Assembly (NCBI GenBank): GCA_037138755.1
Contig: JBAXHT010000003.1
Span: 124,001 to 188,000, forward strand
Origin: Armatimonadota bacterium
GTDB taxonomy: Bacteria; Armatimonadota; Fimbriimonadia; Fimbriimonadales; Fimbriimonadaceae
Length of the DNA: 64,000 nucleotides
Direction: 5' to 3'
Shown: piece after piece, positions 32,372-40,947 of the stretch
Numbering within the stretch: the stretch's first letter is position 1
How the letters are laid out: each line of letters begins with the position of its first letter
Program-made: the position numbers and the translations under genes
Notes under the pieces: generated by a model
What the model was told of the DNA's origin: nothing
The model's input: the letters and a program-made list of their open reading frames with translations, nothing else
Databases searched by the model: none

Positions 32372-33979
32372 TTACCGCCAGAAGGGTTGTCTGCCTGTTG
32401 CAATCGCACGAATGTTCGTGCCCGTTGAGGTCATGATGACGATCTCAGGAGCTTCAAATGAACCACGCTCGGCGGCGATTTGAGTTCCATCCTGCGAGAT
32501 CGTCGGGTTTGAGTAACCTCCCTCGGTGGTCAGCAAAGCACTAGATACGAGAGAGACGGAAACGGTTCCGAAGCCATCGTTCATGATCGAGCAGTCGTAC
32601 CGACGAAGATTTCCGCTCGCATCGACTCCGACCAAGAAGAACGTCGTCCCCGTTGTGCTACTGACCGAGATTTGGCTCAAACCGACTGCTTCTTGGTCAA
32701 TGTTCTCGTTGTCAATCGTCGAAATCCAGCCATTGGCTGTAGATGTTGAGCTCGCAAGCAAAGCGCGCGGCGCGGCATTCCAAGACCCTAAAGCAAGCTG
32801 GTCGGCAATGAAAGACTGGAGAATCGTTCCCGATGCTGTGTCAACAGCGTAGGCGCTAAGCCCCGAACTCGGGGCAATCGCAATGAACCAGAGCAGATCG
32901 GTGCCAGTGAAGAAGTCTCCAGAAATCTTTGGAGCAAGCGACCACCTGGGCTGGAATGGCCCATCTGGCTTCGGCGATGAGCCTAGGAATAGGTCGATTA
33001 GATTCGAACCATCGAGCCCACATGTGAAAATCGAAGCATCGAACCCTGACTTGGTTCCCGCGAATGCGAGCTTCGTGCGATTGAAGTTTGGAGCCGGAGA
33101 GGAGATCGCGCTAAATACTCCAATTCCGTCCAAGACATTGACAAGATCACTTCCATCACCGGACATCGACTTCAATATCGGTCCATCACTCACAAAGAAA
33201 ATGCGTCCAGTTCCGGTAGCTCCACCTCCCGTGACGTTGAGTGGTGTAGAGGAACTAGATATACCGTTCACGCGTGCGATTACGGAGCCAACACCCCCAG
33301 CGAGGCCGACGACAGAGGGACCATTGACACCCAAAAAGGAACTTCCACTCGCAACCGAGATTGAGAGCGAGCCCGGCGAGACGGCCACGATATTCAGGTC
33401 TGCGTCCCTACATTCGACCTGCAAGTCCTTCGTTTGACCCACTTGTACGCTCTGATTAGGAGGAATCGTCACAGTTTGGATGATGGACTGGATAACGATA
33501 TTGCCAATATCACCACCATTCAGACTGAAATCGACGTCAGCCGCACCGGCCGCAACAACGGCACCCGCGCCGTTTTGATCGGCATAAAATGCAACATCAA
33601 CCAGCAGAGCACCTTTGCGAACCGCTCCCGGCGACGTGTAGTTCTGACTGTAGGCAGCTGGATCGGTACTGCGGTTGATCGTGAACTTGTAATCTGTCGA
33701 AGTGTCGATTCCCCCAAAGACTGTCACGACCGCCGATAGAGCGGATGATGGGGCATCTACGGATCGACTACGGGCCGCCCAGTTGATTCCTAGCTTGACA
33801 GGCGTCGTGGTACTGCCTGTCGAAGCGGTTGTCGAAGTCGTGGAAGTCGTGCTTGTGGTGGAAGTTGTAGATGTTGTTGACGTCGTCGATGTTGTTCCGG
33901 TAGTGCCTCCACCTCCGCCCCCACATGCGATGAGTAGCGCACAGAGGATCACGAAAAGGATCGGAACCAAACGGGACAT
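32372..33979 (-). CDS. Lipoprotein with Thr/Ser linker and TolB-like beta-propeller
   Basis: 535 residues from ATG 33979. The lipobox LIAC is followed by six Gly and then about 30 residues of TTS triplets, an extended linker that holds the domain away from the membrane. The middle is beta-sandwich, with a bacterial Ig-like stretch (VGQTKDLQVECRDADLNIVA; LSISVASGSSFLGVNG). The last 270 residues show WD40/TolB-like repeats (AISSPAPNFNRTKLAFAG; SNPTISQDGTQIAAERG). A surface or periplasmic binding role is likely; the ligand is unknown. It lies just before the CocE-type operon, 12 bp from it. Confidence 0.82.
   Translation of the reverse strand: MSRLVPILFVILCALLIACGGGGGGTTGTTSTTSTTSTTSTTSTTSTTSTTASTGSTTTPVKLGINWAARSRSVDAPSSALSAVVTVFGGIDTSTDYKFTINRSTDPAAYSQNYTSPGAVRKGALLVDVAFYADQNGAGAVVAAGAADVDFSLNGGDIGNIVIQSIIQTVTIPPNQSVQVGQTKDLQVECRDADLNIVAVSPGSLSISVASGSSFLGVNGPSVVGLAGGVGSVIARVNGISSSSTPLNVTGGGATGTGRIFFVSDGPILKSMSGDGSDLVNVLDGIGVFSAISSPAPNFNRTKLAFAGTKSGFDASIFTCGLDGSNLIDLFLGSSPKPDGPFQPRWSLAPKISGDFFTGTDLLWFIAIAPSSGLSAYAVDTASGTILQSFIADQLALGSWNAAPRALLASSTSTANGWISTIDNENIDQEAVGLSQISVSSTTGTTFFLVGVDASGNLRRYDCSIMNDGFGTVSVSLVSSALLTTEGGYSNPTISQDGTQIAAERGSFEAPEIVIMTSTGTNIRAIATGRQPFWR
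33833..33899. repeat. Low-complexity tract encoding Thr-Thr-Ser triplets
   Basis: A 9-nt periodic tract in the minus-strand lipoprotein gene. Codons vary between units, so the protein repeat looks selected and not only the product of recent slippage. It also creates a spurious long plus-strand frame rich in Val. Confidence 0.8.
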
Positions 33980-34027
33980 CACAACTATGATGCTCGATTT
34001 ACTCGCAATTCAGCAGGGTGATCAGCG

Positions 34028-34040: not shown

Positions 34041-35039
34041 ATGAGATCCTTCTTGGCTCTGCTAATGGCATGTGCACTGTTGATTTCTGGTTGTGGTAGC
34101 GGCGAAACCGCGAGCAACCAACCTTCTGAGTCTTCTCCTAAATCTGACTTCAAAGTAGCATTACTGACGCCGGGGCCAGTGAACGACTCCGGTTGGTCTG
34201 CGATGGCATATGAGGGACTCGAGGCGATCAAGACCGACCTCGGCGCCGAAACGAGCAACCAAGTTGCTCAAGGCAACGATATCAAAGAAGCCATGAGGAG
34301 CTATGCCCAAAAGGGTTACTCCCTAGTGTTCGGTCACGGCTTTGAGTACAACGAACCAGGAGTTCAAGTCGCTAAGGACTTCCCGGACACCGTTTTCGTC
34401 TCTTCTTCTGGAAGTGCAACTGCCAAGAACGCTGGAGCAATTCGTTTCTACCTCGAACAGTCGTTTTATATTGCCGGAGTCCTCGCCGCCCAAACAAGCA
34501 AGAGCGGTACGGTGGGAATGGTGGGCGGGCCCGATGTGCCAAGTATTCGATCTACCTTCAAAGCGTTTCGGGCCGGAGCTGAGGCATCAAAACCCGGCAT
34601 CAAAGTTCTCGAAGTTTTCACCGGAAAGAATGACGATGTTGCTGCAGCTCGCCAAGTGGCGGAAGCTATGATCAAGAACGGCGCGGACGTTTTGATTCAC
34701 CAAGCAAATGCGGCTGCCCAAGGAGTGTTCACGGCATGCAAGGATGGGAAAGCTTGGGCGCTTGGCGCCAATCTGAACCAAAACGATAACGATAGTGGAA
34801 TCGTTATTGCCAGCGCAACAATTTCTGCCAGAGCCGCTTTCCTAGAGGTCGCAAAGCTCGTAAAGGATAAAAAATTTGACGGCAACGTGGTTCAGCTTGG
34901 AATGGAGAAGGGTGCGATCGACTTCGTCTTCAATGACAAGCTTAAAAGCAAACTGCCCGAAGCCGCGATCAAAGCGGTTGAAGAGACCAAAGCAAATATT
35001 CTCAACGGAAAGCTAATCGTTCCAAAAGACAAATTCTGA
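34041..35039 (+). CDS. BMP family nucleoside-type substrate-binding lipoprotein
   Basis: 332 residues from ATG 34041; the open frame runs further left only because of the Thr/Ser repeat tract on the other strand. The lipobox LISGC gives acylated Cys18. The BMP/PnrA fold is visible in KVALLTPGPVNDSGWSAMAYEG and QSFYIAGVLAAQTSKSGTVGMVGG (in parts). Known relatives bind purine nucleosides; a flavin or other ligand is also known for related proteins. It is first in an unbroken operon of five genes, each overlapping the next by 1 or 4 nt. Confidence 0.93.
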   Translation: MRSFLALLMACALLISGCGSGETASNQPSESSPKSDFKVALLTPGPVNDSGWSAMAYEGLEAIKTDLGAETSNQVAQGNDIKEAMRSYAQKGYSLVFGHGFEYNEPGVQVAKDFPDTVFVSSSGSATAKNAGAIRFYLEQSFYIAGVLAAQTSKSGTVGMVGGPDVPSIRSTFKAFRAGAEASKPGIKVLEVFTGKNDDVAAARQVAEAMIKNGADVLIHQANAAAQGVFTACKDGKAWALGANLNQNDNDSGIVIASATISARAAFLEVAKLVKDKKFDGNVVQLGMEKGAIDFVFNDKLKSKLPEAAIKAVEETKANILNGKLIVPKDKF

Positions 35040-36376
35040 TGCCTGGCGGTCTCTTAGAGGCGAAAAACATCTCGATGAAGTTTGGGGTACTGAGTGCTCT
35101 CAACGACATTTCTGTAGCGTTCAGGCCCGGTGAAGTACATGCCGTTGTTGGTGAAAACGGGGCAGGGAAGTCCACTTTGATGAACGTCCTCGCCGGGTTT
35201 CTAACGCCGAGTACTGGAGTTGTCGAGCTGGATGGTGTGCGTCTCGAAGGATCGGCTTCGCGACGGGCCAATGGCATCCAGATGGTTCACCAACATTTCC
35301 GATTAGTACCGGCATTTTCGGTTGCCGAAAATTTGCGTCTCGGACTCCTCGCCTCCAAGGGTGATGTTGAAGACGCCGAACGGACCGCGGAAGAACTCGG
35401 CTGGGAGCTACAATTGCCCGCGCGGTGCGAAAATCTGGGGGTTGGAGAGCGGCAGAGAATCGAAATTCTCAAGGCATTATCGTCGTCGCCAAGAGTCGTG
35501 ATCTTTGATGAACCTACGGCGGTGTTGACAGAGAATGAAGTTGAGGGGCTTCTGAATACCCTTCGTGCGCTTGCCGAAAGAGGGCTGACGGTGATCTTGA
35601 TTGCTCACAAGCTTGTGGAGGTGTTTTCGGTGGCAGATCAGATCACTGTTTTGCGAAACGGCTTGTTTCGAGGCACATTCAAGGCATCTGAATCGTCTCC
35701 GAAACAAATTGCGGTAGAGATGGTCGGCGCAAGTCTCGCTACTTCTAACCCTTCGCGAGCTGATCACAAAGGGATCTTTGAGTGCCACTCCCTGATGGTT
35801 GACGGACAATGTCCGATTGTGGATTTGAACCTTGCTGTCGGCTTCGGTGAAGTACTCGGAATTGGTGGTGTGGATGGAAACGGCCAAGTTGAACTTGCGG
35901 AAGCTCTCGCGGGAGTACGGAGTTTTCGTGGCTCAATGACCGAGGTGGACTCGGTGGGTTACGTGCCTCAGGATAGACAAAACGATGGTCTGGCCCTTTC
36001 GATGTCGATCGAAGAGAATCTTGAAATTGCCGCTACTCTATTGACCGCTGACTCAGCCATACGGGACTACGAGATCAAGGCTTTAAGCGGAAAGTCAACG
36101 GTGAATGCCCTGTCAGGTGGGAACCAGCAAAAAGTGGTTCTTGCTCGAGAATTATCCCGCAATCCTCAGCTTCTTGTTGTCGTGAATCCGACCAGGGGCT
36201 TGGATGTGAAAGCGTCCACGTTTGTGCTCAATCAAATCGGTGAGGCCGCTGTTCGTGGTGCAGCAGTGGTATTGATCTCGACAGATCGGGACGAGATCGC
36301 AGCAATTTCACACCGAACGCTTTACCTTTCCAAAGGAAGACTACTTCAAACATCAGCTGAGGCCCTGTCCGCATGA
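35039..36376 (+). CDS. BMP-type ABC transporter ATPase with two nucleotide-binding domains
   Basis: 445 residues, rather short for the two-domain family (usually about 500). The first domain has Walker A GENGAGKST (38-46), signature LGVGERQRIEIL and Walker B VVIFDEPTAVLT. The second has no true Walker A (GIGGVDGNGQVELAEAL, the usual degenerate form), a full LSGGNQQKVVLAREL signature and LVVVNPTRGLD in place of the Walker B Asp-Glu. It drives the two permeases that follow. Its ATG shares the A of the preceding TGA (TGATG). Confidence 0.94.
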   Translation: MPGGLLEAKNISMKFGVLSALNDISVAFRPGEVHAVVGENGAGKSTLMNVLAGFLTPSTGVVELDGVRLEGSASRRANGIQMVHQHFRLVPAFSVAENLRLGLLASKGDVEDAERTAEELGWELQLPARCENLGVGERQRIEILKALSSSPRVVIFDEPTAVLTENEVEGLLNTLRALAERGLTVILIAHKLVEVFSVADQITVLRNGLFRGTFKASESSPKQIAVEMVGASLATSNPSRADHKGIFECHSLMVDGQCPIVDLNLAVGFGEVLGIGGVDGNGQVELAEALAGVRSFRGSMTEVDSVGYVPQDRQNDGLALSMSIEENLEIAATLLTADSAIRDYEIKALSGKSTVNALSGGNQQKVVLARELSRNPQLLVVVNPTRGLDVKASTFVLNQIGEAAVRGAAVVLISTDRDEIAAISHRTLYLSKGRLLQTSAEALSA

Positions 36377-37383
36377 AATCTGTCTGTATTGGGCTGGCAG
36401 GTTTGACGGCCATCATTTCGATCGGCCTGCTGCTGGCCGGTGTGCCGATTCTTGAAGGGTTGCGACTCTTGGTACAGGGTGCGTTCGGGGATCGCTTTGC
36501 AATCTCTCAATCATTCGTTCGTTCCACTCCACTTCTGCTTGCTGGGCTAGGAGTTGCGATCGCCTGGAAAGCTGGTGTCTTCAACATCGGTGGCGAAGGT
36601 CAGCTTGTGATCGGCGCTTTGGCGGGAGCCTCTGTCGCAAAAATGCTTGCCGCCATTGGATTGCCCGTAGTTGCTACATTGCTGATTTTGGTAGCTAGCG
36701 TCTTCGGAGGGGCCGCCTGGTCGGCGATTGCAGGCTGGCTCTGGATAAAAAGAGGTGTTAACCTTGTCATCTCCACGATTCTCCTCAACTTTATCGGCGT
36801 CCAGTTGCTCGTATTCAGCGTCGATGGGCCACTTCGAAGAGCAGGGCAATCTGCTCCAATGACAGACCAACTCCCGGACGCCTGGATGCTTTGGAAACCA
36901 TCTCGTCAGACCGACTTTCACCTGGGAGTGCTTCTGGCATTAGTGGTCGCATTTTGTGTGGGCTGGTACGTGTTTAGAACCAGGAGCGGATACCTACTGC
37001 GCGCCACGGGTGCGAATCCGAGATTTGTGCGGGCTAACCGATACAGGCCGGAGTGGATTCAGTTTAAGGCAATGTTGCTCAGCGGGGGACTCTGCGGCCT
37101 TGCGGGCGGTGTCCAGTATCTTGGAATCAACGGGCAACTCACGTCTTCATTCTCTCAGCAATACGGGTTTCTAGCCATTCCTGTTGCGCTTGTCGGAGGT
37201 TTGCATCCAATCGGGGTTGTCGCGTCCAGCCTGTTCTTCGGATCGCTGTTTGCAGGAACGTCTAACCTCTCCCGCTTCAGCGGAGGGGGAAGCTACTTCG
37301 TTTATGTGGTGCAAGCTCTCGCAGTTTTGGCACTCCTGGGTTATCGGCTACTTGCAGAACAGCGTCAGGAGGCCGTCGCATGA
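36373..37383 (+). CDS. BMP-type nucleoside ABC transporter permease 1
   Basis: 336 residues, about nine transmembrane segments. Family landmarks are TPLLLAGLGVAIAWKAGVFNIGGEGQL (in pieces), the cytoplasmic coupling region FRTRSGYLLRATGANPRFVRANRY and ALVGGLHPIGVVASSLFFGSL. It pairs with the next gene to form the membrane channel, as in BmpFG or NupBC. It overlaps the ATPase gene and the second permease gene by 4 nt each. Confidence 0.94.
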   Translation: MKSVCIGLAGLTAIISIGLLLAGVPILEGLRLLVQGAFGDRFAISQSFVRSTPLLLAGLGVAIAWKAGVFNIGGEGQLVIGALAGASVAKMLAAIGLPVVATLLILVASVFGGAAWSAIAGWLWIKRGVNLVISTILLNFIGVQLLVFSVDGPLRRAGQSAPMTDQLPDAWMLWKPSRQTDFHLGVLLALVVAFCVGWYVFRTRSGYLLRATGANPRFVRANRYRPEWIQFKAMLLSGGLCGLAGGVQYLGINGQLTSSFSQQYGFLAIPVALVGGLHPIGVVASSLFFGSLFAGTSNLSRFSGGGSYFVYVVQALAVLALLGYRLLAEQRQEAVA

Positions 37384-38246
37384 TTGACCCAATTTCGATT
37401 CTGCGGTATGCGGCTCCAATCGGATTTTCTGCGGTTGGAGAGACGGCGGGTCAGAGAGCTGGAATCATCAACATCGGTCTAGAAGGCACGATGCTGGCCA
37501 GTGCTTTCGTGGCGATGCGAGTGAGCCTGAGCACAGGTAACCCTTGGCTCGGAATACTTGCCGGAATGTTTGCGGGACTGTTTGTGACCTTAATTTCGGC
37601 AGTGTTAACCATCAGCATGCGTCAAGACCAAGTTGTGATTGGGACCGTCTTCAATCTTCTCTTTTTTGGAATTTGTGGGATGCTGTTTGAAAAGTCCAAC
37701 GGAGCAACTGGCCAACTGCTATCACTTCCAGCTTTGCCTAAGCTCATTTGGGGCATCGACGCAGTTCTTATCATCTTAATACTTGCTGCGGGGGCCACTG
37801 GTTACGCTCTCTTCAAAACGGATTGGGGACTCAAAGCTCGGGCAGCAGGTGAGTATCCGTCTTCACTTGAGGCGGCCGGGTTCTCCGTAGCAAGAACTCG
37901 ATATGAGGCGTGTGCTATCGCGGGAGTGATGGCTGGCTTGGGTGGAGCATATTACGCAATCGGGGTAGCAGGTTCGTTCGCTCCAGATATGATTTCGGGG
38001 AGGGGATTTATGGCAATCGCAATGGTCACGTTCGCGCGGTGGAAACCGGTTTGGGGCCTACTTGCGGCTTGCCTGTTGGGCTACTTCGAGACCTTGCAAA
38101 TTCAACTTCAAATGAACCAGCAGGGGATTCCAAAGTCGCTCTTAATTGCCATTCCGTATGCCGCAACACTGCTTGTGCTGGTGTTTTCAGGCAAAGGGGC
38201 AAAGGCTCCTGAAGCTCTTGGCGAGCCTTATCGGGGGATGAGATGA
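37380..38246 (+). CDS. BMP-type nucleoside ABC transporter permease 2
   Basis: 288 residues with about eight transmembrane segments. The start region RYAAPIGFSAVGETAGQRAGIINIGLEG (in parts) and the coupling loop LKARAAGEYPSSLEAAGFSVARTRYEA are typical of the second permease of these systems. It completes the transporter: lipoprotein, double ATPase, two permeases. Its 3' end overlaps the tandem PTPS gene by 4 nt, which ties that enzyme-like protein to the transporter. Confidence 0.94.
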   Translation: MIDPISILRYAAPIGFSAVGETAGQRAGIINIGLEGTMLASAFVAMRVSLSTGNPWLGILAGMFAGLFVTLISAVLTISMRQDQVVIGTVFNLLFFGICGMLFEKSNGATGQLLSLPALPKLIWGIDAVLIILILAAGATGYALFKTDWGLKARAAGEYPSSLEAAGFSVARTRYEACAIAGVMAGLGGAYYAIGVAGSFAPDMISGRGFMAIAMVTFARWKPVWGLLAACLLGYFETLQIQLQMNQQGIPKSLLIAIPYAATLLVLVFSGKGAKAPEALGEPYRGMR

Positions 38247-39058
38247 CCCTACGAATGACCCGAACCGTATCATTTTCTTCCGGGCATCGTTATTGGTTCG
38301 CCCATCTTGCGGCGGAAGAGAACAAACGTTTGTTTGGCGAATGGGCTTCGCCGTTTAGCCATGGCCACAACTACACACTACACGTCACCGTTGATGGTCA
38401 GATTGATCCTTTAAACGGCATGATCGTCAATATCAAGGACATTGACGGAGTTCTGAAGACGCACCTGTTGCCCCAGTTTACCAATCGTAGCTTGAACGAC
38501 GAGATTCCACATTTTGAACGACATGCTCCGACGGTAGAAAACGTGCTCGCCTACGTTTGGGCCGAGATTCAGCGCATCGGACTCCCTCACGAAGTGACGC
38601 TAACCCACATCAAACTCGAAGAAATCCCCACACTTTACGGAGAATTTGACGGCATGAAAACCACGATCACACGCATTTATGAATTCGCTGCGAGCCACCG
38701 GCTTCATGCACCTAATCTGCCGCCTGAAGAGAACCTCAGACTGTTTGGCAAGTGCAACAACCCAGCGGGCCACGGACACAACTACGTTCTTGAGGTAACG
38801 ATCAGTGGTGAGGTCGATACCAAAACAGGAATGATCTGTTCGATCGATGATCTCGACCGGATCATTTCGGAGCGCGTCGTCGACCGTTACGACCATCGGA
38901 ACCTTAACGAAGATATCGCCGAGTTTGCAGGTCGAGCAACGACCAGTGAAAACGTTTCCATCGAGATCTTCTCACGCTTGGATGGCGCTCTGCCAGCACA
39001 GCTGGAAAGGGTTAGGCTCTATGAGACCGCGCGAAACCTCTTCGAAGTCTGTCGTTAA
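38243..39058 (+). CDS. Tandem 6-pyruvoyl-tetrahydropterin synthase/QueD-like protein
   Basis: 271 residues made of two PTPS units, about 1-140 and 145-271, against one unit (about 120-140) in QueD. Both units keep the three zinc histidines (H15, H40, H42; H152, H177, H179). Only the second has the catalytic Cys171 (LFGKCNNPAGHGHNY), the Asp217-His218 pair and Glu262 (RLYETARN). In the first, Trp34 stands where Cys should be and the DH pair is missing. PTPS family enzymes act on dihydroneopterin triphosphate to give pterins or the queuosine precursor. The ATGA overlap with the nucleoside permease suggests a joint role. Convergent with the debranching enzyme, 4-nt overlap. Confidence 0.93.
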   Translation: MTLRMTRTVSFSSGHRYWFAHLAAEENKRLFGEWASPFSHGHNYTLHVTVDGQIDPLNGMIVNIKDIDGVLKTHLLPQFTNRSLNDEIPHFERHAPTVENVLAYVWAEIQRIGLPHEVTLTHIKLEEIPTLYGEFDGMKTTITRIYEFAASHRLHAPNLPPEENLRLFGKCNNPAGHGHNYVLEVTISGEVDTKTGMICSIDDLDRIISERVVDRYDHRNLNEDIAEFAGRATTSENVSIEIFSRLDGALPAQLERVRLYETARNLFEVCR

Positions 39059-40947
39059 TCTCCGCCACAGTCTTCAACCCAAGCCCGTAGATACTCCGCC
39101 ACGCTCCAAGCTTGCCAAGGGCAACCATTCGGGCGGTGGGGCGGGTCTCCGTCGTAGCATTCGCTGATTCCGGCAAAACCGCAATCTGCGAGCATTTCTA
39201 TCGAGTGTTTCAAAGTCTTTCGGAGCGAGCTTATCTCGCCTCCGAAACGGGCCCTGGCCGAGATGTAGGGCCCCATAAGCCACGGCCAAACGGTGCCTTG
39301 GTGATAGGCGGCGTCAAGTTCTCGGACAGGGCCTTCGAATCGACCAATGTAGCTGGGCTCGTTAGGTCCGAGCGTCCTTAGCCCGACCGGAGTCAGCAGG
39401 TCCCGCTCAATCACGGCTAATGCTCTTTCTGCTCTTTCTTCACGGCAGGGGGAGAAGGGAAGCGACATGGCGATGACTTGATTTGGTCGCAGTGAAGCAT
39501 CACCTGGTTCGACAGTGTCGAAGTAGTGGCCTCTTGCCTCGTGCCAGAACTTCTCCTCAAAGTGTTTCGTTGCAAGATTTGCCAGTGTTTCTTCCGCTGA
39601 CCAATCGGCTCCAAGCTTTGCCTTTAGCCAGACTGTAACGCGCAAGAGATTGATCCAGAGTCCGTTGATCTCAACTGGCTTGCCGTGCCTCGGAGTAACC
39701 ACCCAGTCGCCAATCTTGGCATCCATCCAAGTGAGTTGGAGGCCCGGTTCGCCTTGTTTCAGAAGTCCATCCGCAGGATCGACCATGATTCCAAAGTCGG
39801 TTCCGTGGCGGTGGTGCCAGATCACTTGCTCAAGAACTTTGACCATTTGATCGGCAAATTTCTCGTCCCATTCTGCCAAAAGGGTTTTGTAAACCGCGTT
39901 GCCATACCAGAGGGTGGCGTCGACCGTGTTATAGTCCGGAATCTCACCCCGTTCGACGAAGCGATTCGGAATGAGGCCGTGCTTGAGCTGGGAGGCGTAA
40001 TCACGCAGAATCTGCCGAGCTTCGGCGACGTGACCGGTTTCCAAACAGATACCGGGAAGGGAGATCATCGTATCTCGGCCCCAATCGCTAAACCACGGGT
40101 ATCCGGCCAAGATTGTGGTTCTCGACTCAGTGGTTACTAGGAACTTCAACGCAGCCTCCTTCAGCCTGGAAGTGAGCGATAGGTCCGCATTTGAAGTTTC
40201 TGCTGGAAGCGCGGTCAAAAGTGCTTCGCCTACGCTCGCGGAAATCGAGGCTGATTCACCAGCCTGCAATGTATAGGAAAGCTCGCACGGGCAAAAAAGG
40301 TCGTCTCGCGGATCAAGGCCACGCTCTAGTTCGCGCTGATGCTCAAATCGGTAGTACCAACCGGCAACCGGAGAACGCATTGCTCCTGGATGGGAGATCA
40401 GTAATTCGACTCCGTCCTCTTCGATGATGGTCTGATCTGATCCGATTTGAATCGACTGGGGGTAGCTCTCACGTTCGGCAAAGTTCGCGTGAAAGTCTCG
40501 ATGACAAACCAACGGACTCAAAGACAGCTCGATTGCTTTATTACCAGTGTTCTTGTACTCGATCCAAACTGCATTCTCGCCCGGAACAATGTAGATGGTT
40601 TTCTGGACTTTCACTTGTCCTCTCCGGTAGTTCCATACAGCCCGATCCGATACTGAGAATGATTCGAGGAACTCATAGCCATCCGGGTAGACCGCGCCCG
40701 GGTATTGGTTGGAGCTTAATCCGAGCTTTGTCCCCCCGCAGGACGCGTAGCCATCGATTCCGGCAAGCAAGAGCCTTCTGTCGGTTGGCGGATTGACCGC
40801 GGCGATCAACAACCCGTGATATCGCCGAGTGTTTATTCCGCTTGCAGTACCCATCGCAAATCCTCCGATCCCGTTGGGTAGGAGCCACTCGCGTCTCGTG
40901 GAGACGGCGAGGTTTTTGCACTGCTGGCTATCGAGCGAGTAGATCAT
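39055..40947 (-). CDS. Amylo-alpha-1,6-glucosidase, glycogen debranching enzyme type (GH133)
   Basis: 630 residues. The N-terminal beta-sandwich domain starts REWLLPNGIGGFAMGTASG...RRYHGLL, and the (alpha/alpha)6 catalytic domain includes GYPWFSDWGRDTMISLPG (about 285-302), typical of archaeal/bacterial GDE proteins. The AYHQGTVWPWLMGPY stretch near the end is another mark. It removes the alpha-1,6 linked glucose at branch points of glycogen in the cytoplasm. A GT4 enzyme of glycogen synthase type is at 55976-57352. TTATAA stands 6 nt before the ATG, another possible leaderless start. Confidence 0.93.
   Translation of the reverse strand: MIYSLDSQQCKNLAVSTRREWLLPNGIGGFAMGTASGINTRRYHGLLIAAVNPPTDRRLLLAGIDGYASCGGTKLGLSSNQYPGAVYPDGYEFLESFSVSDRAVWNYRRGQVKVQKTIYIVPGENAVWIEYKNTGNKAIELSLSPLVCHRDFHANFAERESYPQSIQIGSDQTIIEEDGVELLISHPGAMRSPVAGWYYRFEHQRELERGLDPRDDLFCPCELSYTLQAGESASISASVGEALLTALPAETSNADLSLTSRLKEAALKFLVTTESRTTILAGYPWFSDWGRDTMISLPGICLETGHVAEARQILRDYASQLKHGLIPNRFVERGEIPDYNTVDATLWYGNAVYKTLLAEWDEKFADQMVKVLEQVIWHHRHGTDFGIMVDPADGLLKQGEPGLQLTWMDAKIGDWVVTPRHGKPVEINGLWINLLRVTVWLKAKLGADWSAEETLANLATKHFEEKFWHEARGHYFDTVEPGDASLRPNQVIAMSLPFSPCREERAERALAVIERDLLTPVGLRTLGPNEPSYIGRFEGPVRELDAAYHQGTVWPWLMGPYISARARFGGEISSLRKTLKHSIEMLADCGFAGISECYDGDPPHRPNGCPWQAWSVAEYLRAWVEDCGGD

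Follow-up and report, generated by a model that had tools for sequence, protein, structure and literature searches.

The nucleoside importers PnrA, BmpA, BmpD and Lbp combine a substrate-binding protein of the BMP fold with a two-domain ATPase and two PF02653 permeases, and the nucleoside-binding residues that they share include Phe27, Phe176, Asp225 and Lys242 of BmpA (PMC13325309). AtzT belongs to the same fold family and binds guanine (PMC6834077). Its ligands, guanine and 2-hydroxyatrazine, are free heterocycles that are held without ribose. The riboflavin importer RfuABCD of Treponema pallidum also uses the BMP fold to bind a pteridine-containing ring, and we know of no linkage between RfuABCD and pterin genes. 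On the enzyme side, the known PTPS proteins are single-domain homohexamers, and in rat PTPS the catalytic triad is inter-subunit. PTPS-II comprises the rat and human PTPS and the cyanobacterial BH4 enzyme, whereas QueD (PTPS-I) shares the fold and the Pfam family but carries the motif CxxxHGH. The motif CxxxxxHGH has been reported for PTPS-II, the BH4 branch (PMC5041015).

A 2026 review describes BH4-type pterin chemistry as rare in bacteria and calls the route of pterins across bacterial membranes unknown (PMC13259868); in the literature that we searched, no bacterial pterin importer was found. Here we describe an operon in which a BMP-type importer is coupled to a tandem PTPS. Each part is of a known kind; what is new is how they are combined and which substrate we infer. 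As it recurs in distant bacteria, the block makes a good candidate for a system of active pterin uptake, which has yet to be identified in bacteria. The question of membrane crossing becomes testable with a single lipoprotein, since the importer is conserved and tied to genes of pterin synthesis.

A five-gene chain ending in a tandem PTPS

The window, by which we mean the whole 64,000-nucleotide stretch of DNA that was analysed, comes from an Armatimonadota genome of 3.27 Mb (97% complete) whose nearest named relatives are Fimbriimonas and other Armatimonadota. On its plus strand lie genes for a BMP/PnrA-like substrate-binding lipoprotein (332 aa, 34041-35039; PF02608, E 4.8e-49), an ABC ATPase with two nucleotide-binding domains (445 aa, 35039-36376; PF00005), two PF02653 permeases (336 aa, 36373-37383, and 288 aa, 37380-38246) and the tandem PTPS (271 aa, 38243-39058; PF01242 twice, and alignments). 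With its PF02608 lipoprotein, ATPase and two PF02653 permeases, the set belongs to the BMP/PnrA-like ABC importers. Direct reading of the sequence confirmed the chaining that had been predicted, with overlaps of 1, 4, 4 and 4 nt: the lipoprotein and ATPase genes share one nucleotide in TGATG, the ATPase and first permease genes overlap in ATGA, and the two remaining junctions overlap by 4 nt each. Short overlaps are by themselves ordinary in compact operons, and it is the recurrence of the five-gene block, rather than the overlaps, that goes beyond chance. The best NCBIfam match of the ATPase is the ATPase of a BMP-type putative B6 transporter, and it stays below the cut-off; a B6-transporter identity taken from the NCBIfam names was dropped because the scores are far below the cut-offs.

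Directly 3' of the tandem PTPS gene lies a convergent glycogen-debranching-type gene (39055-40947, minus strand), and 5' of the operon a divergent gene for a secreted-protein-like product with a long TTS-repeat linker (32372-33982). About 58 bp separate the start codon of the latter from that of the operon, and the two nearest relatives (L034, L035) share this gene. No riboswitch or other known RNA was found at gathering scores in the window.

The tandem PTPS consists of unit 1 (residues 1-138) and unit 2 (residues 139-271), both modelled with high confidence by AF2 (mean pLDDT 97), and its nearest solved proteins are the rat, human and C. elegans PTPS, with unit 2 closest to the animal enzymes. 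Alignment confirmed what had been predicted for both units. Unit 2 is complete, with His152, His177, His179, Cys171, Asp217-His218 and Glu261, and its stretch GKCNNPAGHGH provides the CxxxxxHGH motif. Unit 1 keeps the zinc ligands His15, His40 and His42 and also Glu127 at the pterin-anchoring place, but Trp34 replaces the catalytic Cys and Thr80-Asn81 replaces Asp-His. The full PTPS-II set (CxxxxxHGH with the zinc histidines, Asp-His and Glu) is therefore present in unit 2 and lacking in unit 1, and CxxxHGH is absent from the tandem protein. The enzyme is probably of the PTPS-II (biopterin) type; it differs from the described PTPS-II proteins in having two units, one of them inactive, and an importer in the same operon. 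Its score against TIGR03367 (QueD) is over the cut-off, and automatic annotation would label it as QueD. A separate single-domain QueD with the motif CRFPHGH (CxxxHGH) is encoded elsewhere in the host genome (C1:1813271), so queuosine is served by another protein; a queuosine role for the tandem PTPS was rejected on this ground, and the deazapurine task offered in the original prediction is not supported.

Across 50 diverse tandem proteins, unit 2 never varies at His152, Cys171, His177, His179, Asp217 or Glu261, and 45 of them have His218. The first unit behaves differently between lineages. In 22 Fimbriimonadia sequences its zinc histidines and Glu127 are always retained, position 34 is Trp (20 sequences) or Tyr (2 sequences) and no sequence has the His of the Asp-His pair, whereas in Planctomycetota and a second small phylum most of the zinc ligands are gone as well. 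Because the erosion differs in this way, unit 1 is best read as a copy in decay that is retained for assembly, rather than as a conserved sensor. The proposal of a fused regulatory or binding unit is thus weakened by the nearly complete loss in these two phyla, although zinc and pterin binding may persist in the Fimbriimonadia unit. In a tree of the units all first units fall on one side of a branch that is poorly supported, which is consistent with a single duplication but is no proof of it. No match to the tandem PTPS was found in phage records, and a search of structures and literature found no solved or described tandem PTPS.

Two other arrangements of the tandem protein were seen. On a contig labelled Acidimicrobiia (L043 and L250) both units are intact and are followed by FolE and short-chain dehydrogenases; of the arrangements seen, this is the closest to the state presumed to be ancestral. 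Complementary loss between the units occurs in 39 Poribacteria proteins (L045-L088, L100, L107), where unit 1 lacks the catalytic Cys and has Asp-His while unit 2 has the Cys and Asp-Tyr. This pattern fits an active site that would be shared between the units, as with the inter-subunit triad of rat PTPS, and is the opposite solution to that of the window's lineage.

The binding pocket of the lipoprotein

The lipoprotein (34041-35039) has a signal peptide with the lipobox LISGC, and its AF2 model has a mean pLDDT of 91. The nearest solved folds are AtzT, BmpD, Lbp, PnrA and RfuA, and a more distant relative, 3lft, binds Trp. AtzT is the closest solved structure in both sequence and fold, but the identity is 28%, Glu165, Trp194 and Asn218 of AtzT are not kept and the gene context differs; identity to RfuA, the riboflavin binder, is 21%. 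The pocket region holds Trp52, HGFEYN (99-104), PSIRST (167-172), HQAN (220-223) and Asn244. In all 44 BMP proteins that are linked to the block, the first stacking aromatic is kept, with Trp52 at the place of BmpA Phe27, whereas Asp225 is replaced by Asn244 and Lys242 by Ile, Leu or Val (44/44 each); the second stacking aromatic, Phe176 in BmpA, is missing in the linked Fimbriimonadia proteins. The combination that marks the nucleoside-binding subgroup (two aromatics, Asp and Lys) is thus reduced in the lipoprotein to Trp52.

Orphan BMP paralogues, several of which share genomes with linked proteins, carry SFN, GVDxxQ and the Lys without exception (16/16), and the same is true of the guanosine-binding Lbp. 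Since the paralogues retain the signature and provide an internal control, the linked receptor, judged by its sequence, falls outside the standard nucleoside receptors. The designation of the importer as nucleoside-type therefore holds for its BMP family but not for its pocket, from which the nucleoside signature is absent. A second BMP lipoprotein with the full nucleoside signature occurs in L198, L202-L212 and L216-L219, where it stands alone with no recognised ATPase or permease genes adjoining.

The fold family accepts guanine and riboflavin; a free pteridine is therefore a plausible ligand of the lipoprotein, and a free purine base is also possible. A pterin importer is the best supported reading of the data, followed by a purine base or nucleoside importer. 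The latter would take up guanine, guanosine or adenosine to feed GTP for FolE and would amount to precursor supply, not pterin salvage. The ligands of the BMP family are mostly nucleosides. The AtzT pocket accommodates guanine although it has no such Lys, which also speaks against a pterin as the ligand. However, the ribose-binding Asp and Lys are both replaced in the linked subfamily while the orphan proteins keep both, and no purine gene was recognised within the block in Fimbriimonadia. We consider purine uptake unlikely, and the one neighbouring gene that favours it is described below.

Recurrence of the block and its partners

Strong matches to the tandem PTPS occurred in 139 of 291 Armatimonadota genomes; 113 carried the linked BMP subfamily and 99 had both. 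The two genes are adjacent, that is within 8 kb on one strand, in 71 of these 99, and the remainder is partly due to contig breaks or moved lipoprotein genes. Gene order was inspected in 60 genomic stretches: the order BMP-ATPase-permease-permease-PTPS is found in most Fimbriimonadia and in other Armatimonadota lineages (L170, L171, L172), where identity falls to about 37-40%; linkage as such is seen across classes and in the second small phylum at 35-40% identity. A search restricted to that phylum yielded five genomes only. All four of its genomes with the tandem PTPS have permease genes directly upstream; two have the full five-gene block and two are cut by contig ends. In one stretch (L188:6820-9356) a restriction-modification pair, an N6 methylase and an AccI-like endonuclease, is inserted between the importer ATPase and permease genes.

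The recurrence in Armatimonadota and in the second phylum supports a functional link between importer and pterin enzyme, as had been proposed. The tandem protein is nevertheless found away from transporters in other phyla, a distribution that the original prediction had named as counting against it: the 45 Poribacteria and 19 Planctomycetota loci have no importer nearby, although some of these stretches are short, and 40 of the 139 Armatimonadota genomes have the tandem PTPS without the linked BMP subfamily. Both observations weigh against a pterin importer.

The partners of the importer and of the enzyme lie in one pathway. Where the tandem PTPS lacks an importer or belongs to a longer operon it is often followed by FolE (GTP cyclohydrolase I) and a short-chain dehydrogenase, the former over the NCBIfam cut-offs and the latter of sepiapterin-reductase size; such FolE and reductase genes lie 3' of the tandem PTPS in Poribacteria, Ignavibacteria and others, a neighbourhood that these relatives of the window's protein share with PTPS-II. 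FolE1 adjoins the tandem PTPS in 35 of the 38 genomes that have both. The importer itself is found in the orders importer-PTPS-FolE (L188, L193, L194) and importer-PTPS-FolE-reductase (L160, L164, L189), and in three genomes without a tandem PTPS it directly precedes FolE as BMP-ATPase-permease-permease-FolE (L183, L184, L186). Thus the importer tracks the pathway rather than a single gene, and this coupling to PTPS or FolE sets it apart from PnrA, BmpA, BmpD and Lbp.

It could be argued that the operon is shared for expression only, with an importer for an unrelated nutrient such as riboflavin or vitamin B6 and a linkage that is historical. RfuA is a fold relative, there is weak NCBIfam similarity to the putative B6 transporter, and the genes are apart in about a quarter of the genomes with both, partly through contig breaks. 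Linkage across classes and in a second phylum, together with a switch of partner from PTPS to FolE within the same pathway, makes this explanation rather improbable.

One Armatimonadota family has an adenosine-deaminase-like gene directly upstream of the importer (L182:1897-2922, L184:1623-2672, L185:1736-2806). It fits purines and lends that reading some weight against a pterin importer, but the encoded proteins reach 119-122 bits against an adenosine deaminase cut-off of 216.55 bits. The substrate of the deaminase-like protein might report the ligand of the importer.

Proposed coupling of pterin synthesis and import

We lean, by a little, towards reading the five genes as one cassette for unconjugated (biopterin-type) pterins that serves both synthesis and the import of free pterin. 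More tentatively, we propose that this may be the first bacterial ABC importer dedicated to free pterins of the biopterin type, and that its conserved operon with a half-dead tandem PTPS may couple BH4-type synthesis to salvage. In the proposed route, FolE2, encoded at C1:534700-535446 and unlinked to the operon, would make dihydroneopterin triphosphate, which the tandem PTPS would convert to 6-pyruvoyl-tetrahydropterin. Catalysis would be carried out by unit 2 only, with its full catalytic set, and unit 1 would make up the remaining half of the T-fold ring in a mostly structural role. A reductase, presumably present in the host genome, would then yield a BH4-type cofactor. Its users would include at least a biopterin-dependent aromatic amino acid hydroxylase, and PCD would recycle it. 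The importer, with its stacking Trp and without the ribose-binding Asp and Lys, would return a free pteridine to the cell, most likely a pterin in oxidised or dihydro form that the cell itself and others had leaked or excreted, and the operon would tie the expression of synthesis to that of salvage.

The host genome encodes the biopterin-dependent hydroxylase (C3:101649-102338), near an FAA-hydrolase-family gene, and PCD (C1:600686-600946). FolE1 is absent from it, but FolE2 is there and a de novo precursor therefore exists; pterin auxotrophy was rejected for the same reason. Against the pterin reading, no sepiapterin-reductase-like orthologue was found in the host genome, which has only generic short-chain dehydrogenases at 25-32% identity.

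Across genomes, the hydroxylase PF00351 accompanies the tandem PTPS in 101 of 139 cases compared with 8 of 152 genomes without it, an association strongly structured by phylogeny; outside the order it is far weaker (8/38 vs 3/140), which also tells against the pterin reading. The data suggest that BH4-type pterin chemistry is standard in Fimbriimonadia and is spread over several phyla via the tandem PTPS. Co-occurrence with the hydroxylase, and Trp binding by 3lft, could also be taken to mean that aromatic amino acids, or some other hydroxylase substrate, are what the importer brings in, with PTPS supplying the cofactor. The hydroxylase lies outside the block, however, no hydroxylase match was obtained in many of the genomes that have importer and PTPS (e.g. 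G003, G019, G217) and the importer is linked to FolE even without PTPS, so that we regard amino acid import as very improbable. A divergent hydroxylase gene adjoins PTPS-FolE in L239. In Pirellulaceae loci (e.g. L092:3837-5006), the reductase-PTPS pair has a conserved neighbour whose product weakly resembles homogentisate 1,2-dioxygenase. The match, which scores far under the cut-off of that family, gives a hint of a role in the catabolism of aromatic amino acids.
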